A DNA stretch of 44,775 bases from IMG/VR virus record IMGVR_UViG_3300023178_002274, positions 1 through 44,775 of that record; one strand, 5' to 3'. The position numbers and the translations under genes are program-made. The notes under the pieces were generated by a model, which searched no databases, had not been told where the DNA came from, and saw only the letters and a program-made list of their open reading frames with translations. This stretch comes from a virus. The stretch's first letter is position 1; every line of letters starts with the position of its first letter. This document shows positions 15,226 through 42,780 of this stretch, piece by piece.

Positions 15226-15233
15226 TATTTATT
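15226..15233 (-). promoter_or_regulatory. T4-type late promoter variant AATAAATA
   Basis: The minus strand reads AATAAATA (7 of 8 match to TATAAATA), 19 bases upstream of the ATG at 15206. It straddles the last codons of the giant gene. Its position suggests the fibre block from 15206 to 8309 can be transcribed separately from the 15 kb giant gene. Confidence 0.6.
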
Positions 15234-18200: not shown

Positions 18201-21200
18201 TATATCCAGATCCTGGCTTAGTAACTTTAATGTTTGTAATCTTGCCAGCACCAATAAATGCTTCTGCTTTTGCACCAGAGCCGCCACCGCCTACAATTTT
18301 AATAATAGGTTTACTTAGATAACCGCTACCGCTATCAGCAATAACAATATCTGTTAATTCAAAGCCGACATTTTCTGCCCAATGTCTATTTGGATATGAA
18401 CTAATATCTGCAATGCCAGTTAAAATCTCACCATCAACAACTTGTACTTCTGGTGCATGTATTTTACCTAATACTGCATTGTACTTAGGAGGTAGATCAA
18501 AGTCTGTTGCTACAATACTGTTAGTTTCAGTTTTTTCATATGAGCTAACATATTCTCTAACCTTAGTCTTAAATGGCTTTGCTTCATTGACATAATCTTC
18601 GTAACTAGACAAGTTATCATTTTGGAATGTAATCTTTTGTGCTAGATCTCCAAAGTTGTGTTTTGCTTTTACAAAACTTGTTTTAAATGCCCAGTCTACA
18701 AAATTCTGTTCTGAGAATACATAACGCAATCCTACAAAGAATAATTTATTCCATTCAATTTCTAAATCATTAATATAAATTTTGTTTTTAACTACATCTA
18801 AAATAATTCTTAATTCAGTAATTGGTTGTACATCATAGAATTGACTATCGTAACTGATACCGTCGTAACCTGTATTAGAAATTAATGTATCGTAGATTTG
18901 TTGTTTAAACTGAATAGTTCCGTTTTGTCTACCAATAGTTTCATAGTTTACAGTATAATCTACATTTTCTTGATCATCAACTTTACGTAGCAATAGCCAA
19001 CCGCCGCTACCAATACTTGTGATCTTAACAACTTGACCGACTGTAACATTGATGCTATCTAACTGATATGCATAATCAATTGTGTGGTTAATTACCGTAA
19101 ACTGATTATAGCCAGTCTTGTACCAATCAATATATTCCCAATATAACGATACATCATATGCCTGGCTTTCTACCCGGCTATAAGTACCTGAATAAGAATA
19201 TATTGCCCATCTGCCGCCGATGTTTTCATCGCTGTTTACTAATACAGAGAACTTTCTAATTGAAATTCTTGCACTATTTGAATAGTTTTTACCAGATTTA
19301 AGAATACGTACTCTTGCAATAGATCCGTTTTCATCTATAGTAATATCTAATTCTGCATCCTGACCTTTTGAATCAATAATTTTGTACGTAGGTGCAACTG
19401 TGTAGCCTTGACCTTTGTCAGTAATAACAATATCTACAATTCGACCGTTTTCGATTACAGGACTAATTACAGCCGGTTTAGCAGAACTTACGTTTACAAA
19501 TCTTAATTCTGCAACAGTATCAACAGTAGTATCGTATTTTCTTTCTGCAAATGCTGGTGCAGGATCTTTATCGTCTAAACTAGAAATATCATATGCATCT
19601 AAAATTAAAATGTCTTTAATAACATAATTAATTCTTTCAATAGTTTGCTTGAGTGCTTCTTTTCTATTTACAAACCAACTTTGTCTTGGTACATTTTGAT
19701 TACCATACTTTTGTTTTGCACTTAGATTTAAATCAGGCACAGGACGGTTTTGTAAATCATAACCAACTAAACTGTCAATCCACTTATCTTCAACAATCTT
19801 AGAAGGCTTACTTGTTTTAAGTCCGTCAGTAACAATTTGATATTCTCTATGAATGTTTTGTTGTTGATTTTCATTAATCCAATATCTAATGCTTAGTGCA
19901 ATATCGTTATCTCTAATTAAACTTTCACAATTATGTAAAGCAAATTGACTATTGCTATTCATTGTTAGATACTTGTAATTTTGACTATCTGGATCTTGGA
20001 TATACTGTGATACATCATACGCACTTACAAATCTACCCGGAACGTTCGGAATTGTTTTCTTACCTTTGACCCAGAAATAATATTTTGTGCTAAACGTTTT
20101 GCTCGCAGTATCATAAACACGTTTACTACTATATGCATTATCTCCGTAAAGAGATTTTCCGCTTATTCCAGCAACGATTCCAGCTTCAGTGTCTGCCCGA
20201 GCGTCCCATCTTGACGGAATAACAGTTGATTCAACCCATTCGTAAATATCAATTGATGCTCCAGTAAACAGTTTGTTAAATTTGTTTGTGCTTGAAATAA
20301 TATCACCTTGGTATGGATTTACAAATTTTGCTGTAGATATATCCCACCAAATTTTTCCAACAAACTCATCTGTTGTAGGATTAAGAGTATCTTCGTTTGC
20401 TGTATTATCAACTACAATATTATACTGTGCAATATCATAAGGTGTTTTAATACTAATTTCTTGTTCAGCAGGTCCTGCAATAGCACCTTGAATTGGATCT
20501 AATATATCTACATATGTAAGTAATTCATTAGTTTTAGTATCATAAAGGAACGCACCATTAAACTTACTAATATCAACTTGATCAATTGGTGATCTTAATT
20601 CAGACCACATAAAAGTATTTTTATCTTTTCTAAAGTCAATTACTTTACCGTTAATATTATTTCCATCTTCAACTTCTTCAGTGTACAAAGTTAATCCTAC
20701 GTACACGTGATTATTAACAATTTTAAAGTTGTCTGCAAAGAAAATTACATCCTTATTATATGAAAGTGTTTGTCCGTACAAAAACTTGTTATTGTAGTTT
20801 TCATATAACTCAATTGTTCCACTGTCTTGATCAACTTGAGTAAATTGTGTAACTTTATTATCAAACGAAGTTTGATCGCCATCAAATGATGTTTTGTTAA
20901 CAATATCACCGCCTACACTACCTACTGCAAGTGTTCCGTTGTTATATTCAACTCTACTACCAAACTGTACGTTTAGTCCTTGATCTGGTCCATAAACTGT
21001 TTGAGATAAAACAAATGTTCCGTTTTGCTGTTGGTAACTGTAAACTGCACCGTTAGCTCTATTAATTGTGTCATTTCTTGACGCACCAATAAAGACAACC
21101 TTACCGTCATTTGAAATAGATACATCGCTACCAAAATTTTCATCTTCAGATAGGTCACTTTCTAAAAGTTGTGAATACTGGTATCTTCCGTTGTTTAATC

Positions 21201-24200
21201 TGTATACTGCAACTTTACGTACAGGATTTACTGGGTCATAATCAACAGTAACAACAAGTACTTGTCCATCTTCACTTACATCGTACTTTTCGCCAAACGC
21301 AAACAAGTTAGTTTGGTTTAGTGTACTATCGCCAATTTCGATACCAGATGTATTTGGCATGAATCCTAAGACATCGCTTGCTTCGGTTACAACTTCCCAG
21401 AACTGAGAATTAAACGGTTGTGCGATTAGGTTTGTAGTTAAACGATAAATTTCACCCGAATATAATACTAGTTCATTTTCGTAATAGTCAATTGTAGGAT
21501 CAAATACGCCTCTGTAATTAGGATCCTTGTTTAACAACCAGTCTGTATCTGCATCTTTTTTGTATACATAAATTTTGCCAGGAAGGGTAGTAGTTCCGTT
21601 TCCTTTAGCATGTATTAATGCTAGATAGGTATTATTATTTTTTCTAATTTTAATTTGATTACCAAACTGTAGCCCGTCTACTGCATCTGGAACTGTATAG
21701 TATCCTAAAGTATTATAGAGCAAGCCGCCGGACTTTTCAAAAAATCCTACAACACCTTCGTTGGTTCTTCCACTTGGATCAGCACTTACATCAATTGGAA
21801 TATTTCTTACCTCTGTCCAGTCAAGGTTTAATCTATTTGGAGGAGTGCTTGTTCTAGTAATACCTGATTTTGTATTTTCAAAGTAAACAAAATATTCTAA
21901 ATCTTCTAATACAGTAGCAGGAGATACTGCTATATTTTCTCCTGTATCAATAACAATCGCTCTACCTGCATTTGTTGTTGCAAGTTCTGAAGAAATAATA
22001 TTACCAATAAGTCTTTCTGTTGAATCATTTAGGAAGAAAGAACAGGTACTAATGTCATCGTTATCGGTACCTAAGCTCCAACCGTCTGTAGCATTTTTAA
22101 CAAAAATCTTAACTCTGTCAAACAATCTAATAACGTTTGTAACTGTTGCACTAGCATTTGTAGTTTGGTCAATGACTTGATCGCCGACTTCCGGAATAAA
22201 TGGATTTCCTTGCAGGTCAAAGTTAGTATACAAAACTACAATTTCACCGTCCCAAATATCATCCACAGTATGTGTGGCTCCATTTAGATAGTCAAATGTT
22301 AATCCAATAGCTTCTGGGCTTTGTACAATATTGTTTACTTTTAGTTCGTTTAAATAAAATCTAAAAGTGTCACCGACTTCTAAATCAGCGTCAACAGGTG
22401 ATCTAAAATACCAGCGAGTATCTAATCTTTCAATTTCTGTTTGGCCTTCAATAAAACTTAGTGTTTCAATGTGGCTAATTGGCGTTACTTGTATAGCACT
22501 TCTAGTTTGTAGATTATCAAAAATGTTATAATAATCTACAGGAGTTGTTGACTCTTCTTGTTTAATAAAGTCTTTGTAAATTAAGTTAGGATTAGTTTCT
22601 GCAACTTCGGTACTATTAAATGTTGTACCTACATCTACATACCACCAACCGTTATATCCTGTGTATTCTGTAGCAAATAATTTTTCATACTCGCCCAAGA
22701 AAACAATTCCACTATACAACTCACCGGTTTCTGCAAAGTCGCCATTTACATCTTTAACATAAATTAAAGTTTTATTATCTGGATTATTAAATCTGTATTG
22801 CACTGTTCCTTTACCTAGTGTACTTGTAATAGTATCTCCTACTCCAGGAACTGCCTGAGTGTTATCAATTAATAGGATAACATCAATTTTATCTACAATA
22901 GTGTGCTGTTTAGTAAAGAACTGTTTATTTAAAACTGCATCGCCGTTAAACGGTGAATACCCTAAAGGAGTTTTAGTAGTAAATTCATTCCATACTGTAT
23001 TAAACTTGTCGCCAACTTTAGATGCTTCATACATATCCGAAGGTGCTCTAAACAATACATGGTTAGTAGCTTCGTCTGCAAAAGAATAGTTTCCTCTAAT
23101 TACATATTCAATATCCGGATATGCTTGTGTTATTGTATCATATTTTTCATCTAGAACAATCGCAGTTGATCTAAATGTATTTAGAGAGGTAATTTCTGCA
23201 GGCTGTACTGTACGTCTAGCTAGCCATAATTCTTCAGTGTATTTTACAATATCACCTTGGTTGTAAGTAATTGCTGGGTCATATTGTCCTACAAATTGTG
23301 ACTTAACATCTGATGCACCTGGAGCACCCACTGCAATATATTTGCCGTCTGTACTTATTGCGACTGACTTGCCGAAGTCGTTATTTGTAGTCCACAAACT
23401 GGCAGGCTCATTAATAGTACTTACTAGGTTAATAGGACCAAAGTCTGTTTGTCTATTATAGATATTAACATTAGAAGTATTAATCGACGAATCATTAACA
23501 CCAGGATTACCTAGCACAAGATTAGCATTATTGCTGTCTATATCAAAACTAGTAGCAAAGTCTACACTAGAAGTATTTGTAATTTCTTTGTCTGCCAAGA
23601 AACGCTTTTCATTTTCTAGCACACTCCATTTTCCACTACCGTTGTCATCCAACCAAACAGTTTCTTTATCATAAAGTTTGGTATCAAAAACAAGTTGGTT
23701 TAATTCTTCTGGAGAACTAATTCTTGCAGGTGTTAAAATTGTTATAAATCCTTCAAGATCTGTATTTTCGCTTCCTGTTCCCTCAACAGTAATTTTATCA
23801 AGTTCTACACTTACTACTTTATAAAACTTGTCAAAAGGAGTATTTACAACACCGAATATTTCTCCCACTTTAACATCAAAAATTCTATCAACTGTTATTT
23901 GGAATCCACTCGATGATTGTGTAGAAGAAAGAACTTTAACATTTGTCGGGCTTGACTTATACACATTCCAACTGTTATCAACATTACCTACCCAAATATA
24001 ACTACCTGTTTCTACACTATCTATATTAAGACTTAAGATATCATCATAAGTTGCAACTGTAAAATCAACATCTTCTTCAGTAACATATCCTGCTGTATTA
24101 ATATAATCTTTAAATTTATATTCTGTAGGGAACGGCTTATGATCGTAATTATTAGGTTTTAAGTAAATGTCTTTTCTTTCAAGTTGTTTAATAAGTGTTG

Positions 24201-27200
24201 TATCTTGAGTATCAATTCTATCAACTAATGTAAATGGCTGAGGACTTAATCTCATATCCTCTTCATTTATCTTAATCTCAAATTCTTCATAACCTGATGT
24301 TGAACCATACTGGCCGTTTAGTATTGCCCATTCTTCAAAAAATTCTAAACTATCTTTGTTAGCACTTCCTAATTTATCAAAAAGTTTTGTAAGAGCATTT
24401 TTTGTACCTTTATCTCTAACAAATCCTTGATAAAACTTAAACTGGCTTACACTGTCTGGAATAATATTTTCCAAGTACTTACGTTTTTGATAGCCAATTA
24501 AATGTTGTGCTAAACGCTGTTGATCAATATCAAAATTATCGCTTTCTAAATCATAAAAATCTGCAAACTGGTTTGTTTTGTATTCAAAGTTTGGAATTAA
24601 GCCTGCTTTAGGTTCTCTTGGTAGTCTAGACCATACAGAATTTTGGAATGATGCGGCACCTGGAATTTTTGTAATTGCAGTATAATAAAATGCTTTATAT
24701 TTTACAATATCTCCAATAGCATAATCTTTCCATGCTGTCCACTCAGTAACTACTGCACTATCATAAATGAAGCCTGGAATATTTAATCCGCCATTCCATT
24801 CGTCTGATCTGTAACCTAAAACTTTAATACGTTCTTGTCTGTATCCGCTAGGCTGGTCAAAGATAATATCTCCAAACACTGTATTATTGTCAATAATAAC
24901 AACATGCTCTTTTTGTACTACTGGAATTTTAATATGATAAATTCCGTCTGCGGTGTTTTTAGTAGCTAGACCAAATTTATTTGATTTGTCTCTAATTGTT
25001 CCGCTAAATTCTGGTTGGAACTTTTTGCCGTCTGCCTTTAATAAACTATAGTCAAAGAAATTATCAAAAATATCATCAACAACTGAATATTCAGATTCAA
25101 ATTCAAGTTTGTCTGCACCCGGACTAAGTGTGATTAATGTTCCTGCCTTCCAACGCTGTAAACTCCAGAACATAAATTCTTTTGCACTAGTTTTCCAAGT
25201 TACAACATCGCCAATTGCTTGGTTATATGTATCAAAAATAAATCCTTGTGATTCTAAATAAGCACCGTATCCTAATAAGAAATCAACAACACCCTGAACA
25301 TCTGGGAATAGAGTACCGTAAGGAACTTCTTGGATTTCTTTGTCAAAGATTTTTGCAAAGGTAGCCGATACTCCGCCAGTTTCAGGCAAGTACGGAAGTT
25401 TAGCAAAATATTCAAGATTAGGTGATTCGTCTGTATTGTGTTTTACAGTTACTCTATAATAACTATCTCCAATTTGTACAAGTTGACCTTGTTCATAAAT
25501 TCTATTTGACTGATAGGTAACAAAATTTTCACTAATACCGCCTATACGAATAGTTGTATCATTTTGCTGTTTTATAACAGGATAAGTTCTAAATGCTGGT
25601 GATGATCTATCATATCCTCGTACAGTATAACCTCTAGATTGTTTTTCAACAATAACACCGCTATAACTATATCTTTCTAAAGGTGTACTTGTGTTTAAGA
25701 AAATATTATAATTTTCTTCCGGAACAAAAATATTTCCTTCGTTATACGGAGTTCTACTGTCTAGTATTAGTTTAAATTTTTCTTGTTGTGTAAATCCGCC
25801 AAGTTTAAATCCTAACTGATAAGAAATATTGTTTATATCAGTTTTGTAAACTGAATACAAATAGTTAGAATTTCCTCTAAGCATTCCTTGCATATAGTTT
25901 ACTAGTCCCGACGTATAAACTCTTTGGTCATCTTCTGCAATGTTAGGAAATACTAAATCTTGCAATCTAATTCTTTTGTTAGTTTCAGAGTAAACAAGTT
26001 CTCCTGCACTATTTCTTACAGTTCTACTTCTATCAAATGCTAGTCCAAAAACTTTTGTAGGCTGATTTACTAGCCATGCAATAATTAATGCAAATGGATA
26101 TTCGCTGTTTCTACGCCATGCAGTTTCAACAGGTGCTTGATCACCAAATTTAAACGAATCTCCTGTACGTGTAGAAATTAGTCCCTGTGCAAATCCTGTT
26201 TCAGAAGGTGCAACAAGATTGCCATCCACGTCTACAGGAATGTGTTTTTGTAAATTCTTATGTCTATGCTTTATTGAATATCTTGGATTTTCAGGATCTC
26301 TAATATATCCGTTTTCTAAATCTTCCCAAAGCACTTTGTTATTTTTAGTGTATGGTGATTCGCCATAAACATCATTAAACCAAGTTGGCTTATTTTGAAT
26401 ACCTAAGCACACCCAAGGTTCTAAATGAGGTCTGTCTGTGCCAAAATACTTTTTGTATATGCCTCTCCAAAAACCTCTTAGAGGTTGGCCTTCTGGATCT
26501 GTAGCATGTGCATAGTTATATGTAAATCCATCTAGATTATTAAAAAACGTATGTTGCGAATAATCAATACTACCTGCATTTTCTAACCATTGGTTAAAAT
26601 CTATAATTAAACTTGGATTAACTTTTTGATCTGTAAATTTAGTTGGATCATTATAAGTATCTTCAAAATCATCAATATTAAAAATACTAGGATCATACTT
26701 AATTTTAATATTATTATGGATTCTTTTTTCAAGTTCTAAAATTAATCCATCTCTATAATCGCCATATGTTTTTACAATCGATCCGTCATGTCCTTGAATT
26801 ACTGTAACTAGTTCAGGATATGCATTAAAGTCTGTTGTATCTTCAACTGCTTCTTTTTTAGTAGCATTTGGCATGAAGAAAATTTTATTAGATCCTTCAA
26901 ATTCAATTGCTTTTACTGTTCCAGTTCCTGCATTTAAATTATCATACTGTATTGCTTCTGCTTCGCTAGTAAACAAAGGATAGAACCAACCTAGTTTATT
27001 TCCTTCGTTCATGTTTTGACTTTTTACGCCATAGAATTTCCAAGGACCTGTAGATTCAGCATCAGTTAAAATAAACGTATCGTCCGAATAAACTTTTGGA
27101 TAATATGCTGGATATAAACCTAGTTTTGTAGGAGTAGGCGGAATCCAACATCCATCTGTGCTATCGTAATCTCTAATAGTAATTAGATCATCTTCTACAA

Positions 27201-30006
27201 TATCTATGCTTAGTTGTACAAATCCTTCAGTAGTAAAAGTATAATCTTTATCTTTAATTAATAATTCACCGTTTCTATAAACGTAAACAGCTCTGTTGTT
27301 TAACTCATCTACGCTATAAGGATTACCAATACTAAAATATTTGTTATCTTCATCTATAACAGTATACTCATATGTAACATAACCTTCGTATGCTAACATA
27401 TCACTAAAATAAAACGCATCATTTTTTGTTTTTTCAGACATCATACGCTGAATAATTTGACTAACTACTGTTTCTACAGAACCGTCAACTCCTAAATTTT
27501 CAGCTGTTTGAATAAAGTTTCTTTTAAACTTAGCATATTCAGTTTTTGCATAGCGAATAGCTCTTGTAATGTCGTATTCTTTTTTAGTTGTATGTAACGA
27601 AGCAAATCCAATTAATCCAGAATGTTGTACAAACTTAGTTCCAAACTTACTTAGATTTGGAAGATCTCTTAAATTACTTGTTCCTGGAAACTCTCCTGTC
27701 CAAGCATTATTATTTTCAGTAATTGTTTTTACATGATCGTTAATTTGTCCTAGTGTAAATTCTTCAATTCCTTCATTATTAGGATTGTTTTGAAGATTAA
27801 TAGGAAATTCGTAATAACCGTTATCATTTTTTGGTGCTGTTGAAACTGTCTTAATAACTAATTTCTGATCTTCAGTTATGTCTGTAAGAAATTGAACATA
27901 TTTTTTAGTAGATCCGTCAATTATATCATATTCGCTAGGTAATACTTTTTTATCGTCAACAAATACACTTACTTGAATATCATTTAATAACGCGGCATTA
28001 TTATAAACATCAATTTCAAAATTATTAAATTGAATGCTTGTATCATACTGTCTAACAACTGGCTGTACACTTTCTCTGTATGCTTTTACCCATGCACTTC
28101 TATAATCAAAATTTTCTCTATTGATGTACTGTTGTAATAATCCTTTACTAACTGATTCAGTAATAACTTGTGTTCCGTCTTGATACTCGAACTCTTGTCC
28201 CTCGAAATCAAAGCTAAAGGTAATGTCACCAGTATTTTCGAGTGTTCTATAAACAATAGGAAATCCTAGTTCAACATCATTTGTTCCTGTTCCTACTTTA
28301 TAAGAAAATATTTTTGTGCCTGTAAATGTTGATGCTTCATAAGAAGAATAACTGTCGCCGTTGTTATCAAAAACATCAAACAAAGGCGGTTGATTGAGTT
28401 GGGTTTTTTGCTGTGCTTCTTTCCAACTACTATTAGAATAGTAATAAATTTTACCTTTGTTTTTTAACCCGTTTGTAACAATTACTGTTTCATTATCTAA
28501 TGGATCAGTATCTTCTGTTTCTCTTAATGCAATTTGACTTTGATTGTTGATTGTAAGAATATCTACTTCGTAAATTTTTCCGTTGACTCTTACATCAGTA
28601 TCAGCATTAAATAAAATTCTCATTCCTTTTACAATATCAACACCATCAATATTGTAACCTAATTGACCTTCAACATTGCTAAAAACATCTTTAGTAAAAT
28701 TATCAATCAAATCAACTGCTGTTTTAGACTTAGATCCAAAATTAAATAATTTTAATCCTGCTTCAAATTCAATAATAGGTCTAATTGCTCTGCTTGTTTG
28801 ATCAACATCAAACGGAATATCTAAAATTTCTGCTGTTGTTTTTAGAACATCTTGATGTACCCATTTGTTATATCTTGTCCATTGATTGCCGTCAACACTT
28901 TGTCTACTAATAACAATATAATCTTTGGTTCCTGCATAACCTAATGCATTATCAAAAGGTTGCTTATCAAAAGGATTTGCATCAAACTCAACATCTCTAT
29001 CTTCAATATAGTCTGCTTGAATTTTTAGATCGTTTGCATTAATAAGTTGAATACTTTTTCCAACACCTTCAACTACATATTCACCTGTGGCATATTTTTC
29101 AGGTAGTACAATACCATCAAACTTTATTTTCATTCCGTTTGATAATTTATGTCCTGAATTTAGTGTATAACTTGTTTTACCAATGATTTCTTCTTCAACA
29201 TTAATTTCACTGTTTTCTTCAATGTTTTGAATTTTAATTAATCCGCTTGCTTCAATACTGTTACCATTTACATAAAATAAGTAATCAGGAGCATTTAATG
29301 GAACTTCAAATGTAACAACACCTTGTTCAACTTCATTTTCAGATAGTCCGTTATTATATAAAAATTCAGTATCAGTAGTATTTTTAGTTCTAATACTAAA
29401 CGGCATGTTAGGTGCGTCTACATTAAATGTATATGTTTGTCCTCTGTATAGAGTCAGTGTAGGATTGCTGTTTACATTATTTCTATCAAATGCATATGCA
29501 CTGTTATCTGTATTATCAACAGGAAATACATCATAAGATAAATCTAAATCTCTTGGCTCGCCTAATACAGTAATACTATCAGGACCGTTTGGTAACCAAT
29601 AGTATTCTCTATAGTTTGTAATCATATCCCAGTTAATGTGTGGATTCCAAGAATAATATTCTTGTTGATTTAATACACTATGATCTGATACGTCTGCTGA
29701 ACGAATTCTTAAACTGTTAATATAGTCTCTATAATCTGCATAGTGAGATACATTTTCTAAATTATCCTTAATTACTAAAGCAGGCTCTAATTGATAGTCT
29801 TGTCTACTTTGAGAAACATCACTAATATAGTTGTCAGTATTTTTAAACGCTTTAGAATTTCTTCTACCAATATATCCGTCTAGTTTTTCAACTACACCTG
29901 GACTAATTAACTGATCTAAAGTAGCAGATAGAAATTTTTCGTTAGCAACTGTTCTAAAATACTTTGGTAATAGATCAGAACTTTTACGTTGTTTATTATC
30001 GGCCAT
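15229..30006 (-). CDS. Giant virion protein (4925 aa), gp7 position
   Basis: One unbroken frame encodes 4925 residues, directly after gp6 with a TAATG junction, the place T4 gp7 occupies (1032 residues). Residues 1-150 are a charged head without a signal peptide. Trp/Tyr-rich segments resembling small carbohydrate-binding modules lie near 1492-1528, 1752-1775, 2240-2262 and 2828-2858. FG-GAP-like propeller blades are near 2207-2227, 2905-2923, 2955-2980 and 3012-3035. Glycine-rich GSGY modules are at about 3520-3592 and 3879-3965. A repeat of the form VNG-x4-6-DY followed by a DxIxI strand occurs at about 680, 905, 4014, 4159, 4324, 4519, 4644 and 4830. The C-terminal 150 residues include an LTRGTLGT stretch. 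Similar very large proteins exist in marine T4-like phages (recollection). Probably a baseplate-periphery protein with adhesive modules; gp7 homology itself is not shown. Confidence 0.85.
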   Translation of the reverse strand: MADNKQRKSSDLLPKYFRTVANEKFLSATLDQLISPGVVEKLDGYIGRRNSKAFKNTDNYISDVSQSRQDYQLEPALVIKDNLENVSHYADYRDYINSLRIRSADVSDHSVLNQQEYYSWNPHINWDMITNYREYYWLPNGPDSITVLGEPRDLDLSYDVFPVDNTDNSAYAFDRNNVNSNPTLTLYRGQTYTFNVDAPNMPFSIRTKNTTDTEFLYNNGLSENEVEQGVVTFEVPLNAPDYLFYVNGNSIEASGLIKIQNIEENSEINVEEEIIGKTSYTLNSGHKLSNGMKIKFDGIVLPEKYATGEYVVEGVGKSIQLINANDLKIQADYIEDRDVEFDANPFDKQPFDNALGYAGTKDYIVISRQSVDGNQWTRYNKWVHQDVLKTTAEILDIPFDVDQTSRAIRPIIEFEAGLKLFNFGSKSKTAVDLIDNFTKDVFSNVEGQLGYNIDGVDIVKGMRILFNADTDVRVNGKIYEVDILTINNQSQIALRETEDTDPLDNETVIVTNGLKNKGKIYYYSNSSWKEAQQKTQLNQPPLFDVFDNNGDSYSSYEASTFTGTKIFSYKVGTGTNDVELGFPIVYRTLENTGDITFSFDFEGQEFEYQDGTQVITESVSKGLLQQYINRENFDYRSAWVKAYRESVQPVVRQYDTSIQFNNFEIDVYNNAALLNDIQVSVFVDDKKVLPSEYDIIDGSTKKYVQFLTDITEDQKLVIKTVSTAPKNDNGYYEFPINLQNNPNNEGIEEFTLGQINDHVKTITENNNAWTGEFPGTSNLRDLPNLSKFGTKFVQHSGLIGFASLHTTKKEYDITRAIRYAKTEYAKFKRNFIQTAENLGVDGSVETVVSQIIQRMMSEKTKNDAFYFSDMLAYEGYVTYEYTVIDEDNKYFSIGNPYSVDELNNRAVYVYRNGELLIKDKDYTFTTEGFVQLSIDIVEDDLITIRDYDSTDGCWIPPTPTKLGLYPAYYPKVYSDDTFILTDAESTGPWKFYGVKSQNMNEGNKLGWFYPLFTSEAEAIQYDNLNAGTGTVKAIEFEGSNKIFFMPNATKKEAVEDTTDFNAYPELVTVIQGHDGSIVKTYGDYRDGLILELEKRIHNNIKIKYDPSIFNIDDFEDTYNDPTKFTDQKVNPSLIIDFNQWLENAGSIDYSQHTFFNNLDGFTYNYAHATDPEGQPLRGFWRGIYKKYFGTDRPHLEPWVCLGIQNKPTWFNDVYGESPYTKNNKVLWEDLENGYIRDPENPRYSIKHRHKNLQKHIPVDVDGNLVAPSETGFAQGLISTRTGDSFKFGDQAPVETAWRRNSEYPFALIIAWLVNQPTKVFGLAFDRSRTVRNSAGELVYSETNKRIRLQDLVFPNIAEDDQRVYTSGLVNYMQGMLRGNSNYLYSVYKTDINNISYQLGFKLGGFTQQEKFKLILDSRTPYNEGNIFVPEENYNIFLNTSTPLERYSYSGVIVEKQSRGYTVRGYDRSSPAFRTYPVIKQQNDTTIRIGGISENFVTYQSNRIYEQGQLVQIGDSYYRVTVKHNTDESPNLEYFAKLPYLPETGGVSATFAKIFDKEIQEVPYGTLFPDVQGVVDFLLGYGAYLESQGFIFDTYNQAIGDVVTWKTSAKEFMFWSLQRWKAGTLITLSPGADKLEFESEYSVVDDIFDNFFDYSLLKADGKKFQPEFSGTIRDKSNKFGLATKNTADGIYHIKIPVVQKEHVVIIDNNTVFGDIIFDQPSGYRQERIKVLGYRSDEWNGGLNIPGFIYDSAVVTEWTAWKDYAIGDIVKYKAFYYTAITKIPGAASFQNSVWSRLPREPKAGLIPNFEYKTNQFADFYDLESDNFDIDQQRLAQHLIGYQKRKYLENIIPDSVSQFKFYQGFVRDKGTKNALTKLFDKLGSANKDSLEFFEEWAILNGQYGSTSGYEEFEIKINEEDMRLSPQPFTLVDRIDTQDTTLIKQLERKDIYLKPNNYDHKPFPTEYKFKDYINTAGYVTEEDVDFTVATYDDILSLNIDSVETGSYIWVGNVDNSWNVYKSSPTNVKVLSSTQSSSGFQITVDRIFDVKVGEIFGVVNTPFDKFYKVVSVELDKITVEGTGSENTDLEGFITILTPARISSPEELNQLVFDTKLYDKETVWLDDNGSGKWSVLENEKRFLADKEITNTSSVDFATSFDIDSNNANLVLGNPGVNDSSINTSNVNIYNRQTDFGPINLVSTINEPASLWTTNNDFGKSVAISTDGKYIAVGAPGASDVKSQFVGQYDPAITYNQGDIVKYTEELWLARRTVQPAEITSLNTFRSTAIVLDEKYDTITQAYPDIEYVIRGNYSFADEATNHVLFRAPSDMYEASKVGDKFNTVWNEFTTKTPLGYSPFNGDAVLNKQFFTKQHTIVDKIDVILLIDNTQAVPGVGDTITSTLGKGTVQYRFNNPDNKTLIYVKDVNGDFAETGELYSGIVFLGEYEKLFATEYTGYNGWWYVDVGTTFNSTEVAETNPNLIYKDFIKQEESTTPVDYYNIFDNLQTRSAIQVTPISHIETLSFIEGQTEIERLDTRWYFRSPVDADLEVGDTFRFYLNELKVNNIVQSPEAIGLTFDYLNGATHTVDDIWDGEIVVLYTNFDLQGNPFIPEVGDQVIDQTTNASATVTNVIRLFDRVKIFVKNATDGWSLGTDNDDISTCSFFLNDSTERLIGNIISSELATTNAGRAIVIDTGENIAVSPATVLEDLEYFVYFENTKSGITRTSTPPNRLNLDWTEVRNIPIDVSADPSGRTNEGVVGFFEKSGGLLYNTLGYYTVPDAVDGLQFGNQIKIRKNNNTYLALIHAKGNGTTTLPGKIYVYKKDADTDWLLNKDPNYRGVFDPTIDYYENELVLYSGEIYRLTTNLIAQPFNSQFWEVVTEASDVLGFMPNTSGIEIGDSTLNQTNLFAFGEKYDVSEDGQVLVVTVDYDPVNPVRKVAVYRLNNGRYQYSQLLESDLSEDENFGSDVSISNDGKVVFIGASRNDTINRANGAVYSYQQQNGTFVLSQTVYGPDQGLNVQFGSRVEYNNGTLAVGSVGGDIVNKTSFDGDQTSFDNKVTQFTQVDQDSGTIELYENYNNKFLYGQTLSYNKDVIFFADNFKIVNNHVYVGLTLYTEEVEDGNNINGKVIDFRKDKNTFMWSELRSPIDQVDISKFNGAFLYDTKTNELLTYVDILDPIQGAIAGPAEQEISIKTPYDIAQYNIVVDNTANEDTLNPTTDEFVGKIWWDISTAKFVNPYQGDIISSTNKFNKLFTGASIDIYEWVESTVIPSRWDARADTEAGIVAGISGKSLYGDNAYSSKRVYDTASKTFSTKYYFWVKGKKTIPNVPGRFVSAYDVSQYIQDPDSQNYKYLTMNSNSQFALHNCESLIRDNDIALSIRYWINENQQQNIHREYQIVTDGLKTSKPSKIVEDKWIDSLVGYDLQNRPVPDLNLSAKQKYGNQNVPRQSWFVNRKEALKQTIERINYVIKDILILDAYDISSLDDKDPAPAFAERKYDTTVDTVAELRFVNVSSAKPAVISPVIENGRIVDIVITDKGQGYTVAPTYKIIDSKGQDAELDITIDENGSIARVRILKSGKNYSNSARISIRKFSVLVNSDENIGGRWAIYSYSGTYSRVESQAYDVSLYWEYIDWYKTGYNQFTVINHTIDYAYQLDSINVTVGQVVKITSIGSGGWLLLRKVDDQENVDYTVNYETIGRQNGTIQFKQQIYDTLISNTGYDGISYDSQFYDVQPITELRIILDVVKNKIYINDLEIEWNKLFFVGLRYVFSEQNFVDWAFKTSFVKAKHNFGDLAQKITFQNDNLSSYEDYVNEAKPFKTKVREYVSSYEKTETNSIVATDFDLPPKYNAVLGKIHAPEVQVVDGEILTGIADISSYPNRHWAENVGFELTDIVIADSGSGYLSKPIIKIVGGGGSGAKAEAFIGAGKITNIKVTKPGSGYITPPEIIIEGSLDDDGSAGRAAAQLGNGKIRSAHVVVKFDRTTGNFLITTLDETETFTSQPNQQVFELKYPMNVISTNITVLVNGVEALRSQYTYDNKKDTTKGYDRYKGRILFNTAPNANSEITVQYKKGTELLDAQDRINLLYNPTTGQLANDLSQLMDGVDYGGVEVTSIDFGGGAGWNADRWNESAFDVFDTTYEDEVFVLDGSTSVFELNQPLENGVVYNVYLNGVRIDDEAWTSSEDSTSITNKNAKMRSITGDGTTTTVTIDEELIPTEAGDIIVIRKETSDGSFIPDPKSYDTLVDGGNLRYTTAKGINAEDINIDGDGFVTPTTSKGPEELVPGQVLDTVDIKVFHRVGTGGSEISSNVYSADSSVLTYKFDFLPQNKDALMVKVNGIVVSNYTVNYKDKTVTFDSALSNTDEINIISLTSNGNGILDIGTFETDGSTIVYESNVPYTEESNSYLSMDGEEPEYVVIETANNKIGFDFGLPPEEGKVINFAIYTGTEKTFSQIGIDTFTGDGSTSAFALSRIPFATIPLLSNIIVKKNNKILSAGYKEEFVISTAREYQLRTYQQPPGKLGSDDIVLLLNGKALVPAVDYIIRPFNSSVELFDGVGEDGDRLQIFVTADADYTLTVADTVATVTLNDAPADGDTVSIYNFAKHDVQAIERTRLDAVNRVTLTVGTDDHEEYHRLRNGLIKLDIKAKDSQYAWVTINGDLLTPNVDYYVTEDGNFVKILNEIADNDQIDIIQFGTTGITSNRFAFRQFKDIFNRTVYKRLGDDRAYRLAEDLSVFDNKIVLENAEGLPEPNSAINLPGVIFINSERIEYFVKEGNKLKQLTRGTLGTGVKHVHDAGSVVYNQGYTQTIPYKDETVQVKHTGDDSTNTFDLGYTPSSVNELEVFVGGKRLRKSAVKVFDITVNQDSPEGDVTVPAEFTVENSNLVLTRTPVLGESIIIVKKQGKLWTPLGESLEDVENSITRFLKSKEAELPE

Positions 30007-33000
30007 TAGTAACTAGATCCTCCGTTGCTAGAAGTACTGCCTGTATTTAAATTTGAACTTACAGTATTGCCTGTTGTTGTAGATTGTACACTACTTACAA
30101 CTGTGCCGCCTGCGGCTTGTATATTAGTTGCTGTAATGCTGTCAATAATTTCAACATTATCAACTGTTGCACCACTAATAAAAATTTCAAAATCTTCTGA
30201 TTTAATTTCATATAAACTACCAAATACCTGAGATTGTTGTTTTGGAACAATAACAAAGTTGCTAATAGATGGTGCTGTTGCTGTCATAACATATGTTGCT
30301 AGTTCTGTAAAACTAAATGTATCGCCAAAGTCCCAGTTATCTAGGCTAAAGAATTCGTTAATTGCGGCAATTACTCGTGTTTTAATTTCGTTATCGTTTA
30401 CAACTTGATCTGGATTTTTAACAACTTTAAATGTTGCTTGAACATCTGGATCTGCTTTTTCGCCAAACAAAACTTTATAAGACACAGGATGATAAATTAC
30501 TTCATCACTAATTGATTTAATCTTATTGATATCTTCACTATACAATAGATATAATTCGTCTGAGCTTGGAGGCTTTGGCATAGCACTTACTGCACCTTTT
30601 AGATACTGTCTAAATGATCTGTCATATTGTCTTGTAAGCAAATAAGTATCCATTATATTACTTGCCGCAGAGTCAAGTCTTGAATTTTCATCTGCACTGT
30701 GAACATACTGGAATTTTAAATTTCCTCTACCTACAAATGCTTGATAGCCACTTTCGATAACTAGTAAACTTCCGCTTATTGCCTTAAAAGTTTTAGTATC
30801 TTCAATATAAAAAACTTGTCCGTCATCGTATTGGCTGTATGCACCGATACTTGATTCGTTTGGTACAACTCTAACACTATTTGCATTATCGTATACAAAA
30901 ATTTCACTGCCTTGATTACTTTGAATCTTTTTCTGGAAAATATATTTTGAACTACTATTAGTTTGAGGTGCAACAAGATTTTCAAAAATATCCGGATCGT
31001 CAATAATGCCATCATTATTTTCGTCGTAGAATCCAACTTCAATCTTTTTAGTGTTTACATATCCGTCAATATCAATATATTGATCAGTGATTTCCCAAAC
31101 AGTGTCTACTGTAAACGGCACTACAGAATCTGGCTGTGTATTAATACTTAAAATTCCAATCTTGTCTTTAATAAGTTTTCCTGTTTTGTTATTAAAAATC
31201 TTTTTAGTGTTATCAAAATAAAAATTAACATCTTGATCACTTTCAAAAAGATAACGTAATCCTCTGTAAGTAATTGTATAGGTTTCGCCATTTGTTTCAA
31301 ATAGTAATAACCAGCTCGAGTCTAGCTCTGCTGAGCTAGTATCGCCTGTTTTACCTAAATTAAACTCACCTAAACTATTCAAGTTTTCTTTAATAATAAC
31401 ACGCCATTCTCTCAAGTTTTGATCGTATCTTAAACCAAAAGTTTTGTAAGCAAAAATTTGATCAACTAGTTGTGTTTTAACATCTGTACTAAGTGTTCTT
31501 GTAAGTTTTGGTCTAATTTCTTTAACTATTGCACCTTCTGGCACCTGCTTGTTAAACTTGATAGGTCCATTGCCGCTGGAGTCAACTTCTGTACCATTAC
31601 CGTTAACACCGATGACTTTAACCCAAAAGTAATCAACAGAGTTAGGATGATCGGCAGATCCACTCATTAGTGTATACTTGTCGCTGTCTACCATAAAGTG
31701 CTGACCTGTTGGTGCAACAAATTTAACTAACGCACCCGATTCTACGAATCTTAATGCACCGCCTGTAAACGTGCCGACTTGAAAACGTGTACCGTTTGTA
31801 TCTTGTAAGTAACCTGTGGATAGGTTTGTATCAGCTGTTGACTGCACAAAACTTGCCTGCAAGTCATCTGTAATAATTCTACTATAATTGTAATGATAAA
31901 AACTGTTAATACCTCTAGTAGACAAAAGAGGTTGTATTAGATTTTCAATATTTCCTTCAATGTCAGTTTGGGTTACAAAACTAAACTGATATTTTTTAGT
32001 AAAAGAATCTTGATAAATTACACCGTCTTGCGAGTATAAGTTTGTGCTAGAATATTTTGCCGTAGGATCTTTTAAATCAAAGTTTCTACTAATACCACTT
32101 GCAATCCTGTTTACAGTTTTTGCTTTAATAATTTCTTGACTAACGTTCAAAGGACCAATTTGATAGTCTTCTGCCGTTATCATTCTGTTTTGTGTATAAT
32201 AAGTTTGTGGAGCACTGTTTCTAATACTTGTGTTAGACTCGCTAATACTTGCATTATCAACATTATATTTTAAACTTAGAGTAATATTAATAGTTTCGAT
32301 TTTACCGACCGAACTTACATATTTTATCGATACTACTGTGTTTGAAATATCTGCAGGTCTAATAGTATATTGTCTATTAGCACTCTGTCTATAATAAACT
32401 CTAAAACTTCCTTTTGGTAGATTACCAAAAACACCGTCGGCAAAAACTAAATTAATTTTATCATCTTGGCGTGTTTGTACAGCAAAAATATTTCTTTTAT
32501 TTTTGTTAATACTATTATATGTTACATTTGTACCGATAGTTGAATCAACTTTTGTCCACAAAGCATTTTCAGTACCTATACTGTTTAGCTTATAAAGCCA
32601 TATATCTGAGTTATTAATGTTTGCTGAATCTATACTAATAATTTGATTTGCACTCGGGGCTGTTACTGTAAAATCACCTGTTTGTAATTGCCCTTGTCTA
32701 AAGTGAACAAAGTATCCAGTGTTGCTACTTGCATTACCTTGGCCATCTTCTCTGTATAGGAAACCCAAACTGTTTCCTGGAAGAGGCGGTTCTTCAATAA
32801 TATTTCCTTCTTTAATTCTACAACTAGTAACTTCAAACTTAGTGCTTTCGCCGTTTACAGTTTTAGAAAAACTATATGTAGGAGTGTTTTGATTAATTGC
32901 ATTAAACTTATAACTCTGTGTTAATACACCAGCTACTGTATCTGATGTGATAGGTTTTCCTACAATATTGTTTACGGGCAGTGCCGCATTAAGAATCTTA

Positions 33001-33470
33001 CGGAACTGTTCTTCCCAATTTTCGTTACTAGGATCGTTCCATGCAACTGTTTGATCTTTTAAATTAAATCCGTTACTATCATAAATTGTTTCTGTTGTTG
33101 ATACAGAGTCGATTTTAAGAAATCCGTTTGCGGCTCTGTTACGCTTAGGATTATAAGACAACAGACGAGCAAGTCTTAAAACACTTTCTCTGCGTTCAGC
33201 AAGCTCAATATAGTTTTCTCTAGCATTTAGATCAACACGGAAAGCAATATTTTGTCCAAGGAAAGCAATAAGATCAATAAGTGCTAGATATTCACTAGAT
33301 TCAATGTAGTCGTTAAAATCTTCTGGATAGTTTTGGCGGAGATATCCAACCATTGTTCGTCTTAAATTATCAAAATCATAAGACTTAAAGTCAGCATTTT
33401 TAAAGGATTGATAAATGCGTTTCCAATCCTCTGCTATAAGTAATCTATTTTGTCTGTCCGTTGTTGGCAT
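30006..33470 (-). CDS. gp6: Baseplate wedge protein gp6 (extended)
   Basis: The N-terminus (EDWKRIYQSFK, RRTMVGYLRQNYPEDFNDYI, LIAFLGQNIAFRVDLNARENY) is the typical start of T4 gp6, the baseplate wedge protein that forms the inner ring and changes shape on infection. The region near residues 1010-1100 (RVIAAINEFFSLDNWDFGD) matches the C-terminal part of baseplate J-type proteins. At 1154 residues it is nearly twice T4 gp6 (660). Residues 816-827 form an exact EF-hand-type calcium loop (DENNDGIIDDPD). The last 40 residues are a Ser/Thr/Gly-rich tail. A late-type octamer lies 19 bases upstream and AGAGGA precedes the ATG. Followed by the giant gene via TAATG. Confidence 0.93.
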   Translation of the reverse strand: MPTTDRQNRLLIAEDWKRIYQSFKNADFKSYDFDNLRRTMVGYLRQNYPEDFNDYIESSEYLALIDLIAFLGQNIAFRVDLNARENYIELAERRESVLRLARLLSYNPKRNRAANGFLKIDSVSTTETIYDSNGFNLKDQTVAWNDPSNENWEEQFRKILNAALPVNNIVGKPITSDTVAGVLTQSYKFNAINQNTPTYSFSKTVNGESTKFEVTSCRIKEGNIIEEPPLPGNSLGFLYREDGQGNASSNTGYFVHFRQGQLQTGDFTVTAPSANQIISIDSANINNSDIWLYKLNSIGTENALWTKVDSTIGTNVTYNSINKNKRNIFAVQTRQDDKINLVFADGVFGNLPKGSFRVYYRQSANRQYTIRPADISNTVVSIKYVSSVGKIETINITLSLKYNVDNASISESNTSIRNSAPQTYYTQNRMITAEDYQIGPLNVSQEIIKAKTVNRIASGISRNFDLKDPTAKYSSTNLYSQDGVIYQDSFTKKYQFSFVTQTDIEGNIENLIQPLLSTRGINSFYHYNYSRIITDDLQASFVQSTADTNLSTGYLQDTNGTRFQVGTFTGGALRFVESGALVKFVAPTGQHFMVDSDKYTLMSGSADHPNSVDYFWVKVIGVNGNGTEVDSSGNGPIKFNKQVPEGAIVKEIRPKLTRTLSTDVKTQLVDQIFAYKTFGLRYDQNLREWRVIIKENLNSLGEFNLGKTGDTSSAELDSSWLLLFETNGETYTITYRGLRYLFESDQDVNFYFDNTKKIFNNKTGKLIKDKIGILSINTQPDSVVPFTVDTVWEITDQYIDIDGYVNTKKIEVGFYDENNDGIIDDPDIFENLVAPQTNSSSKYIFQKKIQSNQGSEIFVYDNANSVRVVPNESSIGAYSQYDDGQVFYIEDTKTFKAISGSLLVIESGYQAFVGRGNLKFQYVHSADENSRLDSAASNIMDTYLLTRQYDRSFRQYLKGAVSAMPKPPSSDELYLLYSEDINKIKSISDEVIYHPVSYKVLFGEKADPDVQATFKVVKNPDQVVNDNEIKTRVIAAINEFFSLDNWDFGDTFSFTELATYVMTATAPSISNFVIVPKQQSQVFGSLYEIKSEDFEIFISGATVDNVEIIDSITATNIQAAGGTVVSSVQSTTTGNTVSSNLNTGSTSSNGGSSY

Positions 33471-33489: not shown

Positions 33490-33497
33490 TATTTATT
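33490..33497 (-). promoter_or_regulatory. T4-type late promoter variant AATAAATA (gp6)
   Basis: In the 47-base gap between gp25 and gp6 the minus strand reads AATAAATA, 7 of 8 bases of the T4 late octamer, 19 bases upstream of the gp6 ATG. This position and spacing match the other late motifs, and it is in non-coding sequence, where it has no other explanation. Confidence 0.65.
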
Positions 33498-33517
33498 TGA
33501 TTTAGAAAAGTGCGTAT

Positions 33518-33958
33518 TTAATTTATTCTATTTCGCTCATCAAAATCTAACGTAAGTCGTTCACTTATGTTGTAAGGCAAGTAAGTAAGAGTACACTCGA
33601 TTTGTATGCCGTAATCAAACGTATCTACAACAATGTTGCTTGCGGATACCCTAGGATCATAATTAACAATAGTTGTTACGTTTTCTGCAATCGCTTCTTT
33701 TAGTGTTTCTGTAAGAGGTTCAAAAAGTGCGTCCCAAATAATACACCCAAACTCTGGATTTTCTAGTTTTTCGCCTTGTCTAATATTAAAATGATTCAGC
33801 AGATCTTGTTTAATTAAACCAATATCATACAACACAAAAGAGTCATTGTTAGGATTAACAGTGCTAGTACCTCTATAGGCTTTTGATCCAGGAACAGCCT
33901 TTGGAGCTTCTGGACTTTTTACTGTAATATTCTTATAAATTGGTTTTTCTGCACTCAT
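33518..33958 (-). CDS. gp25: Baseplate wedge protein gp25
   Basis: A 146-residue protein of the GPW/gp25 family, which in T4 links gp6 and gp53 in the wedge and contacts the sheath. The signature is in the middle: IRQGEKLENPEFGCIIWDALFEPL, the conserved gp25 core, followed by a helix and two strands (VDTFDYGIQIECTLTYLPYN). Length is close to T4 gp25 (132 residues) with a short N-terminal extension. It lies between the PAAR gene and gp6, consistent with baseplate gene order. A Shine-Dalgarno-like AGGTGG lies about 12 bases before the ATG, rather far. No enzymatic role is expected despite the family's old lysozyme name. Confidence 0.93.
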   Translation of the reverse strand: MSAEKPIYKNITVKSPEAPKAVPGSKAYRGTSTVNPNNDSFVLYDIGLIKQDLLNHFNIRQGEKLENPEFGCIIWDALFEPLTETLKEAIAENVTTIVNYDPRVSASNIVVDTFDYGIQIECTLTYLPYNISERLTLDFDERNRIN

Positions 33959-40636: not shown

Positions 40637-40936
40637 CTAGCCTCCTTGTAATGCTTGCTTGATTCTTTTTCCTTGTGGCAAATAAATCTTTGTGCCCGCA
40701 ACAAAATCATATATAGGATCGCCTAATACATTCATGTTGCGTTGAATGAATACCCACCATAATTTTGAATCTTGGTATAAGTCGTATGCTAAAAGGTCGG
40801 GTCTGTTTTCATATTGAGGTTCTATTTCGTACAAGATATCATCTGCTTCTGCAGGTACAGGTCGAATATCAAGACGATCGAGATAAAATCCACGATTTTT
40901 TGTTTTATAGTATGGACTACTTGCTCCGTACGCCAT
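40637..40936 (-). CDS. gp53: Baseplate wedge protein gp53
   Basis: A 99-residue protein with the conserved gp53 pattern: a N-terminal strand (KNRGFYLDRLDIRPV), a DLLAYDLYQDSKLWWVFIQRN helix that binds gp6 and gp25, and a C-terminal LysM-like strand (AGTKIYLPQGKRI). T4 gp53 is 196 residues, so this is a minimal version. Its start shares a base with the stop of the gp48-like gene (TAATG) and its stop lies within the Shine-Dalgarno spacer of the next gene. Gene order matches other T4-like baseplate clusters. Confidence 0.88.
   Translation of the reverse strand: MAYGASSPYYKTKNRGFYLDRLDIRPVPAEADDILYEIEPQYENRPDLLAYDLYQDSKLWWVFIQRNMNVLGDPIYDFVAGTKIYLPQGKRIKQALQGG
40641..40646 (-). promoter_or_regulatory. 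Ribosome binding site AGGAGG deciding the hub-protein start
   Basis: The minus strand reads AGGAGG, exactly complementary to the 16S rRNA tail, five bases before the ATG at 40635. The intervening bases contain the TAG stop of gp53. It supports starting the hub-like protein here rather than 25 codons earlier. Confidence 0.8.
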
Positions 40937-41829
40937 TAAATATAACCTCTTCCGTTAAGAATTAAATCACCATTAACAAAATCATTCATGTTAAATGCTT
41001 CTTGTTGTGATCTACTATAAATTGGAACACAAGTAACTGCAAACTGACTTTCTACTGGGGCATATGCTACTCCGCCGCCTGTTTCAACTCCACCGTTAAT
41101 ATTAGGTGATCCTAATCCTGTTGCAATGTAGTCAACTTCAGCACCCATATCAAGCGAGAATGTTTGTATAATTACCGGAACAGACTTAAACACATAGTCA
41201 CCATATCCATTTAATCTAACAACCGGTGGCGGATTACCTTGGTTTTCACTGCCTTGTCCGTAATACATTTTTGTTACACTTCTTAAGTAGTGTAAACATG
41301 CTACCCAATATCTTGCTTCGAGTGCGTTCTGCACATGGAAATTGCCGGTAAGCATAATACTGTCAACTTTGCTTCCTTCGTAGCTGAAAAAAGGATAATT
41401 AGTATGTACAGGTTGCATCGCATTGTAATCAGCACTATGTTGAAAGACAACAGATGGTGTATAAGGAAAAGTAAAACCGCCTGTAGTAACTAAGGGAGCC
41501 AGTAAAGGACTTGATTCATACAGCATATCGTTTGGTAAACTAAGTTTTACACGCCAGTCAAAGCCGCTAGATTTAGCAAACTGTGCCGAAGATGTGTCAA
41601 TTGCTGAAAAGGGATTTGCACCCCTTGAAATATTTTTTGAACGTATTTTAGATAGGAAACCTTGAGCACCGCCAATGAAGTCGCCAATGCCACTACCGCC
41701 TGCAAAATCACTAACTGCATCGAATGCATCGTTAATTCCGCCGAATGCACTAGTAACATCTCGTTGGACATTGCTGGCAATGTTTTCTACATCACTTGCT
41801 ACGTTTTTGAAAAATGCACCTATACTCAT
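40936..41829 (-). CDS. Tail-tube cap/junction protein, gp48/gp54-like
   Basis: The 297-residue protein has a helical N-terminus (residues 1-60) followed by a tail-tube-like beta domain: TTGGFTFPYTPSVVFQHSADY, then EARYWVACLHYLRSVTKMYYG and a VIIQTFSLDMGAEVDYIATG stretch. This pattern resembles proteins that cap the baseplate and start the tail tube (T4 gp48 and gp54). Its position before gp53 favours gp48, but the sequence alone does not let me choose. It is the first gene of the minus-strand virion block, with AAGGAG close to its ATG and a late-type motif 18 bases upstream. Confidence 0.72.
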   Translation of the reverse strand: MSIGAFFKNVASDVENIASNVQRDVTSAFGGINDAFDAVSDFAGGSGIGDFIGGAQGFLSKIRSKNISRGANPFSAIDTSSAQFAKSSGFDWRVKLSLPNDMLYESSPLLAPLVTTGGFTFPYTPSVVFQHSADYNAMQPVHTNYPFFSYEGSKVDSIMLTGNFHVQNALEARYWVACLHYLRSVTKMYYGQGSENQGNPPPVVRLNGYGDYVFKSVPVIIQTFSLDMGAEVDYIATGLGSPNINGGVETGGGVAYAPVESQFAVTCVPIYSRSQQEAFNMNDFVNGDLILNGRGYI

Positions 41830-41846
41830 AGTCTCTCCTTATACAT

Positions 41847-41854
41847 TATTTAGT
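41847..41854 (-). promoter_or_regulatory. Probable late promoter (ACTAAATA) of the baseplate block
   Basis: The minus strand reads ACTAAATA, 6 of 8 bases of TATAAATA, 17 bases before the ATG at 41829. It is weaker than the other late motifs, but it lies at the right distance ahead of the first gene of the virion block and no sigma-70 promoter is visible on this strand. Its last base is the first base of the TTGACA box of the divergent gp55 promoter. Confidence 0.45.
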
Positions 41855-41882
41855 TGACAAAGTTATCTACATAGTTTATAAT
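41854..41882 (+). promoter_or_regulatory. Consensus sigma-70 promoter of gp55
   Basis: The -35 box TTGACA (41854-41859) and the -10 box TATAAT (41877-41882) are separated by 17 bases, a 12 of 12 consensus match. Transcription would start near 41889, which coincides with an ATG; translation therefore more likely begins at the TTG at 41910 behind GGAG (41898-41901). It is the only promoter visible for gp55. Confidence 0.9.
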
Positions 41883-41909
41883 AGAACTATGTTAACCGGA
41901 GAATATAAT

Positions 41910-42755
41910 TTGAAAAGAGTAAACTACTTAAACAACAGAGATATACTAAAGCAGATACACAAATCAAAAAACACATTTTGTAGTTATGTTGATCCTGAGT
42001 ATAATCAATACGACATTATCTTAGACGATGTTGAAAAAATTAACATTCGTACTATTGCAGAAGCAAAAAGAAACAAAGCAAAGCGTCTTAGTACCGCAGA
42101 CTACGAAGCACGTAAAGAAGCAGGCGAAAAAGTAAAACAAGCAGATTGTGCCATTCCTTATACAAAGATTACAAAAGAAGAACTAATCTTTCGTGTAATG
42201 ACATTTGATCACATTCCAGACGAACCAGGCAGAAAGAAAACACCAAAGACAGTAGCAGACACTAAAGTAAAACTAAATTTTCCTCCATTTCAACATTTTA
42301 AATTCAACGACGAAGGCGAACTTATCTGCGTAGGTAAAAGTCACTGGGAAGGTGGCATGGAGAACGGAAGTTTTAATAAAAAACACGGAAAGGCTACAAA
42401 CGAACTTGCTCGTATGTGGATGAAACTTTGTGATCGTTATGCTACCCGAGGCAACGTTCGTGGTTACACCTACAACGACGAAATGCGTGGACAGGCTATT
42501 TTACAACTTGCACAAATTGGTTTACAATTTGACGAGTCTAAAAGTCAAAACCCATTTGCATATTACACAGCGGCGGTTACAAATAGTTTTGTAAGAGTCA
42601 TTAATATTGAAAAACGCAATCAAAACATTAGAGACGATATCCTTGAAATGAACGACATGAATCCTAGTTATACAAGACAAGCACAAGGCGAGTGGGAAGC
42701 CAGTGTAAAACGCAACGAAGAAGCTAAGATGAGTGTTTGGAAAGAAAAAGGTTGA
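41910..42755 (+). CDS. gp55: Late transcription sigma factor gp55
   Basis: The product, 281 residues, matches T4 gp55 (185 residues): the start KRVNYLNNRDILKQI aligns with the T4 YVNNKELLQAI region, and residues about 185-235 (YNDEMRGQAILQLAQIGLQF, NPFAYYTAAVTNSFVRVI) align with the sigma region 2 core. It directs RNA polymerase to TATAAATA late promoters. About 100 residues in between (including TFDHIPDEPGRKK and LNFPPFQHFKF) have no match in T4. The C-terminus lacks the hydrophobic SLDFLYE-type clamp-binding tail of T4. I chose TTG at 41910 (GGAG eight bases before) because the ATG at 41889 falls at the expected transcription start. Confidence 0.87.
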   Translation: MKRVNYLNNRDILKQIHKSKNTFCSYVDPEYNQYDIILDDVEKINIRTIAEAKRNKAKRLSTADYEARKEAGEKVKQADCAIPYTKITKEELIFRVMTFDHIPDEPGRKKTPKTVADTKVKLNFPPFQHFKFNDEGELICVGKSHWEGGMENGSFNKKHGKATNELARMWMKLCDRYATRGNVRGYTYNDEMRGQAILQLAQIGLQFDESKSQNPFAYYTAAVTNSFVRVINIEKRNQNIRDDILEMNDMNPSYTRQAQGEWEASVKRNEEAKMSVWKEKG

Positions 42756-42780
42756 CATCTATAGTATTCATATGTATAAT
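42752..42780 (+). promoter_or_regulatory. Consensus sigma-70 promoter of gp47-gp46
   Basis: TTGACA (42752-42757) and TATAAT (42775-42780) with a 17-base spacer again match the consensus in 12 of 12 bases. The -35 box overlaps the last codons and stop of gp55. Transcription would start near 42787, about 22 bases before the TTG start of gp47. Confidence 0.9.

Follow-up and report, generated by a model that had tools for sequence, protein, structure and literature searches.

Divergent early and late promoters held in a fixed register at the gp55/baseplate junction of uncultured T4-like phages

Uncultured T4-like phages of one group were found to carry, within the same 36 base pairs, the early promoter of the late sigma factor gene gp55 and a late promoter of the tail-baseplate genes. 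In the window (the whole stretch of DNA that was analysed, 44,775 b), the two divergent promoters lie at 41847-41901 and face away from each other, with coordinates verified by script (Table 1). Comparison with related sequences revealed both promoters, their fixed register, an upstream element in common with a second late promoter, and the retention of that element where the sigma-70 promoter has been lost. We favour, with moderate confidence, the reading that this is an interlocked divergent promoter, in which sigma-70 polymerase makes gp55, the late core and its element lie on the other strand, use of one side would exclude use of the other, and gp55 would repress its own gene.

The gp55 sigma-70 promoter, TTGACA-17-TATAAT, matches at 12 of 12 positions, and its spacer of 17 falls within the 16-18 b looked for. 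Its transcription is predicted to start near 41889, a position that coincides with the upstream ATG of the gp55 reading frame; the TTG at 41910 behind GGAG, which matches the start in relatives, is most likely the start of gp55. On the other strand, a TATAAATA-like core (compare NATAAATA) stands shortly before the start of a virion gene, as in a T4-type late promoter, with TAAATA 17 b ahead of the baseplate-block ATG 41829. It reads ACTAAATA versus NATAAATA at the other late genes of the window, with C for A at position 2, where A was found in 38 of 54 non-junction sites. In T4 numbering the late box lies at -13 to -6, and if this holds here the late start would be near 41841. No TATAAATA with one mismatch or fewer was found on the plus strand from 41174 to 42578, that is, the window's own junction has no late motif toward gp55. 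Base 41854 was confirmed by script to be common to the late motif and the -35 box, as the preliminary description had stated; that description had confined the overlap to this one base, and the shared DNA extends over about 36 bp.

Table 1. Positions of the promoter elements and genes in the window
Feature	Position	Strand	Remark
Late promoter core ACTAAATA	41847-41854	minus	hexamer TAAATA at 41847-41852
-35 box TTGACA, gp55 early promoter	41854-41859	plus	script-verified
-10 box TATAAT, gp55 early promoter	41877-41882	plus	script-verified
Conserved upstream element in the sigma-70 spacer	41863-41877	minus	centre 18.5 b upstream of TAAATA; weak dyad
Shine-Dalgarno AAGGAGAG of baseplate gene	41833-41840	minus	
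Shine-Dalgarno GGAG of gp55	41898-41901	plus	
gp55 homologue, late sigma factor	41910-42755	plus	281 aa from TTG; ORF opens at ATG 41889
First gene of divergent virion/baseplate block	40936-41829	minus	phrog_12050 virion structural protein, E 5e-45
Late promoter core AATAAATA of gp6-like baseplate gene (30006-33470)	33490-33497	minus	independent second copy of the architecture
Upstream element of gp6 late promoter TAAATACGCACTTTT	33506-33520	minus	distance from TAAATA same as at the junction

The window has three perfect sigma-70 promoters, against 0.115 per 44,775 b expected from a first-order Markov model of its sequence. A second TTGACA-17-TATAAT promoter, at the end of gp55 (42752-42780), serves a gp47-like gene, and another perfect sigma-70 promoter (8296-8268, minus strand) lies ahead of a small gene (7898-8242) at the edge of the left-end gene cluster. 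The tail region of the window also holds a 4925-aa open reading frame (15229-30006).

The gp55 homologue matched phrog_12791 (E 5e-81) and also phrog_234, and by sequence it matched 7d7c_F with an E of 9e-5. Its AlphaFold2 model (pLDDT 87) aligned with 7d7c_F in VIA-align with a Z of 12.1 and an rmsd of 2.7 over 121 aligned residues. As modelled, the protein carries a sigma-2 core like that of T4 gp55, which places it in the T4 gp55 family. An insert of about 120 aa (residues ~36-157) is absent from T4 gp55. For the model of the insert alone (pLDDT 92), Foldseek returned nothing at E 0.001 or better and the highest VIA-align Z was 2.7; the insert gave no Pfam match. That the insert reads the upstream element described below is speculation.

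Relatives were collected by protein search with gp55, taking the best 80 of 600 candidates; these loci and the window gave 81 junctions, two being truncated. The TATTTA-TTGAC composite, directly adjacent or one base apart, was present at gp55 in 78 of the 81 junctions and away from gp55 once in about 1.05 Mb, and no early/late composite arose in 200 sequences simulated by the first-order Markov model of the window. The composite at gp55 is not due to chance. Dropping duplicates and short flanks left 67 unique junctions, of which 62 have 1 bp between the late hexamer and TTGAC and four have none; L078 is the sole one without the composite, and the sigma-70 spacer is 17 in all 66 others. The inner register is thus fixed while the outer spacing drifts, since the -10 box lies 21-65 b from the gp55 start and the late core 11-31 b from the baseplate start. 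Across the same 67 junctions, columns -9 to +29 relative to TTGAC (about 38 b, spacer included) are strongly conserved and the flanks are near random. A divergent homologue of the baseplate gene was found in 172 of the 175 loci having at least 700 b of left flank. A comparison of this junction in related phages had been proposed in the preliminary description, and it bears out the two promoters named there, the perfect sigma-70 match and the late motif each being conserved across relatives. The register, locked in 66 of the 67 unique junctions, suggests selection for a joint unit.

To which of the two promoters TATTTA belongs can be read from other sites. None of the 23 other unique sigma-70 promoters that these loci contain has it within 12 b upstream of the -35 box. 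The gp47-type sigma-70 promoters of the relatives, which served as a control, are without TATTTA upstream. A role of TATTTA as a UP-like part of the early promoter is ruled out by these 23 promoters and by its survival where the -35 box has been lost. A scan for the gp55-type promoter pattern in which TATTTA was not required gave at least 72 new loci. Among the matches listed, gp55 lies downstream in 63; one of these starts at the promoter itself and the other 62 all carry TATTTA. Four further listed matches with TATTTA lie within 100 b of a contig end, and the remaining five have neither gp55 nor TATTTA. By its distribution in these loci, TATTTA belongs to the late side. In another phage (three records, L082-L084), a TATTTAGTTGACA...TATACT composite was seen at a different divergent junction, before a non-gp55 gene. 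In L077 and L097, an extra sigma-70-like promoter has been added downstream of the gp55 composite, and this promoter would escape occlusion by a late complex.

The conserved spacer sequence recurs at the gp6-like gene, whose late promoters lie about 5-10 kb from the junction within the virion block and have a similar sequence upstream of TAAATA. Only the junctions (positions -32 to -9 before TAAATA) went into a matrix of the element, with which every other TAAATA site was scored; the cut-off of -12 was picked after the scores were seen, and the medians and the shift test are independent of it. The gp6 site scored at or above -12 in 38 of 41 non-duplicate gp6 loci, and the median over all 55 gp6 sites was -1.2. 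The background TAAATA sites passed in 12 of 637 cases (median -33.3), one of the 12 resembling a gp6 promoter that a contig end has truncated, and the other NATAAATA late promoters of the same loci in 3 of 27 (median -32.2). When the matrix was shifted by one base, the 38 passing gp6 sites dropped to 0 or 2. The element is thus found 11-25 b upstream of TAAATA in a subset of late promoters, and the junction, by sharing this block with gp6, departs from the T4-type late promoter with no conserved sequence upstream of the core. Because no divergent early gene lies at the gp6 promoter, the element there is not attributable to sigma-70, and because it stands in register at gp6, it looks like an upstream part of certain late promoters. 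As a general late-promoter feature it is ruled out, within the group by the 3 of 27 and in the complete genome of PA5oct by 33 NATAAATA sites before script-called genes, at which no general upstream element was found.

The significance of the element rests on its position, since at the cut-off used the element alone is no commoner than in shuffled sequences. A weak dyad is centred 18.5 b upstream of TAAATA, scoring 0.51 at gp6 (shuffled maximum 0.35) and 0.55 at the junction, where a second centre at -26.5 outscores it. The window's own junction and gp6 elements agree at only 7 of 15 positions. Covariation was considered as proof of a single reader protein and was not found: within genomes, junction and gp6 elements matched at 6.79 versus 6.73 of 12 positions (p 0.42, 38 loci), though L048 is striking by eye. 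In 16 long records, a strict pattern of the element was matched in four, no more than with the reversed control. Among long marine records, element-like sites on the minus strand were seen at 3233 of L354 (G001 3233) before a tail-tube-like gene, where an ATG follows TAAATA after a few bases and the transcript is possibly leaderless, and at 9716 of L357 (G001 69716) before a tape-measure-like gene. The gene names are our reading of the translations and these sites are leads, total hits being not above those in shuffles. Half-sites of the GTAG/GCAT type, also leads, were seen by eye 17 b before TAAATA in MIJ3, 121Q and Atu_ph07.

Some lineages have lost or separated the overlap. In a gp55 tree of 64 rows, made by a quick method and with many open forks, L078, L321, L322 and L334 are nested inside clades of coupled junctions; L332 is absent from the tree. 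L078, L321, L332 and L334 have no -35 box at the expected position; their late motif is canonical, with A at position 2, and a new sigma-70-like promoter lies downstream. At unchanged register the element scored 16.7 in L078, 9.2 in L321 and 10.1 in L332; in L334 it scored 5.1, displaced by one base. The median for coupled junctions was 17.6 and the 99.9th percentile for random 15-mers was 4.7. By these scores the element outlives the early promoter, since it is retained in register in L078, L321 and L332 after loss of the -35 box. A freshwater sister clade (L258-L316) contributed 31 unique decoupled junctions. In 29 of the 31 the sigma-70 promoter stands 27-43 b further along, and a late-type TAAATA faces gp55 in 28, in 24 of them as NATAAATA. 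This TAAATA and the one directed at the baseplate genes are 4-6 b apart (TATTTA-N4-6-TAAATA, back-to-back), an arrangement that may form a two-way late promoter. The gp55 gene of this clade probably receives late input too, and this speaks against a universal negative feedback. The four overlap-free lineages and the freshwater clade argue against the overlap or the feedback being essential.

From the layout of the junction we infer start sites, steric exclusion, reading of the element by a protein and gp55 autorepression, which would work as follows. Early in infection, host sigma-70 polymerase would use TTGACA-17-TATAAT to produce gp55; later, gp55-polymerase would use the minus-strand late core to transcribe the baseplate block. 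The upstream element of this late promoter, which the gp6 late promoter also has, occupies the sigma-70 spacer, and the shared DNA would hold one occupant at a time, either polymerase or a protein reading the element. Early firing would delay the baseplate promoter, and late occupancy by gp55-polymerase, perhaps with an element reader, would shut the gp55 promoter. According to the available text of PMC2988020, gp33 cross-links at -39 and -36/-35 in T4 late complexes and the footprint of the clamp lies 13 bp further upstream; contact of gp33 with upstream duplex DNA is described in the accessible part of PMC7892883. Upstream contacts of the T4 type would fall here on the gp55 -10 box, so that two polymerases would not fit. 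The geometry argues strongly for mutual exclusion of the two polymerases, and a fall in gp55 synthesis from late occupancy is less strongly indicated. In the preliminary description, polymerase on the late site would block sigma-70 polymerase on the gp55 promoter, and gp55 might in this way shut off its own gene: the exclusion stands on geometry, and the loss of the overlap in some lineages and in the freshwater clade speaks against the arrangement being necessary. The conserved spacer element, absent from that description, offers a second route to exclusion. More tentatively, the late promoter may have two parts, the TAAATA core and the element centred some 18.5 b upstream, which the gp55 insert or a phage regulator would read. 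Superimposed on the gp55 sigma-70 promoter, this pair would give a one-site early-to-late switch with autorepression.

Packing alone, by which two ordinary divergent promoters came to lie together and were fixed in place by their shared bases, so that they exclude each other without a regulatory role, is a rather unlikely explanation. It fits the divergent order of gp55 and structural genes in nine of ten annotated records (two of the nine with a nucleotidyltransferase-like first gene; the cyanophage is the exception), the promoter spacing that varies among isolates and the existence of overlap-free lineages, and compact packing could be a partial cause of the overlap. It does not fit a register fixed to 0 or 1 bp despite randomised flanks, nor a conserved spacer whose element recurs at gp6; the spacers of sigma-70 promoters are normally not conserved. 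It is very improbable that the spacer serves the sigma-70 promoter itself, through shape or extended -10 effects, and that the likeness at gp6 is coincidental: the element does end inside the -10 box, which accounts for part of the conservation, but gp6 carries it in register without a divergent early promoter and L078, L321 and L332 retain it after loss of the -35 box.

A possible alternative, which we hold to be somewhat doubtful, is that the element is an operator for a tail-gene regulator from phage or host, which, rather than gp55-polymerase, would repress the gp55 early promoter while switching on tail promoters. The weak dyad at both sites and the element-like sites before the tail-tube-like and tape-measure-like genes would agree with such an operator. 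However, no candidate regulator was found, the two sites do not covary, the centre at -26.5 scores higher at the junction, and the extra sites belong to a set of hits that is no larger than in shuffles. Positive instead of negative feedback, with late transcription also feeding gp55, appears improbable. The TAAATA facing gp55 in most freshwater junctions speaks for it, as do the overlapping early and late promoters proposed for RB49 middle genes (in the available portion of PMC2984593), but the window's own junction is without such a motif. An interlocked divergent promoter with gp55 autorepression remains our preferred reading.

Down-regulation of the late sigma factor once the late programme runs has been little discussed, and a switch of 36 bp, easily cloned, opens it to direct testing. 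Were a T4-type late promoter to have an upstream element, the usual description of such promoters as a bare core would need extending. No paper listed by full-text searches described, in its title or abstract excerpt, a gp55 autorepression switch or an upstream element of such late promoters, the collection searched being without most subscription journals.

The late promoters found here resemble those of T4 (gp55/gp33/gp45) in having a TAAATA core roughly one turn ahead of the start. Both gp55 proteins share the sigma-2 fold as modelled, whereas the insert of about 120 aa occurs only in the junction gp55. T4 late promoters have no conserved sequence at the -35 position, as far as the available text of PMC2988020 goes, whereas a subset here carries an element 11-25 b upstream of TAAATA. 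The marine T4-like cyanophages S-PM2 and Syn9 use NATAAATA late promoters, with the same core consensus as here (PMC2984593, available portion). In ACG-2014b, the only cyanophage examined, gp55 is co-directional with its neighbour and this type of junction is absent. In RB49, overlapping early and late promoters at one gene are both thought to serve middle expression (same portion of PMC2984593), whereas here they point in opposite directions and one is aimed at the late sigma gene. In the jumbo phages PA5oct/MIJ3, 121Q, RaK2 and Atu_ph07, the genes are head to head with a late core near an early-like promoter; the junction of the Agrobacterium phage Atu_ph07 reads TATTTAGTTGACAAATTAACTAC, and its gp55 as query returned only itself. 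The spacing of the promoters varies among these jumbo phages and the composite is not locked, unlike in the group described here. Divergent overlapping promoters are known, for example in lambda-type switches, and two polymerases are mutually exclusive at back-to-back promoters. The junction would share this mutual exclusion with lambda-type switches, and differs in that the sigma factor acting at one promoter is made from the other.
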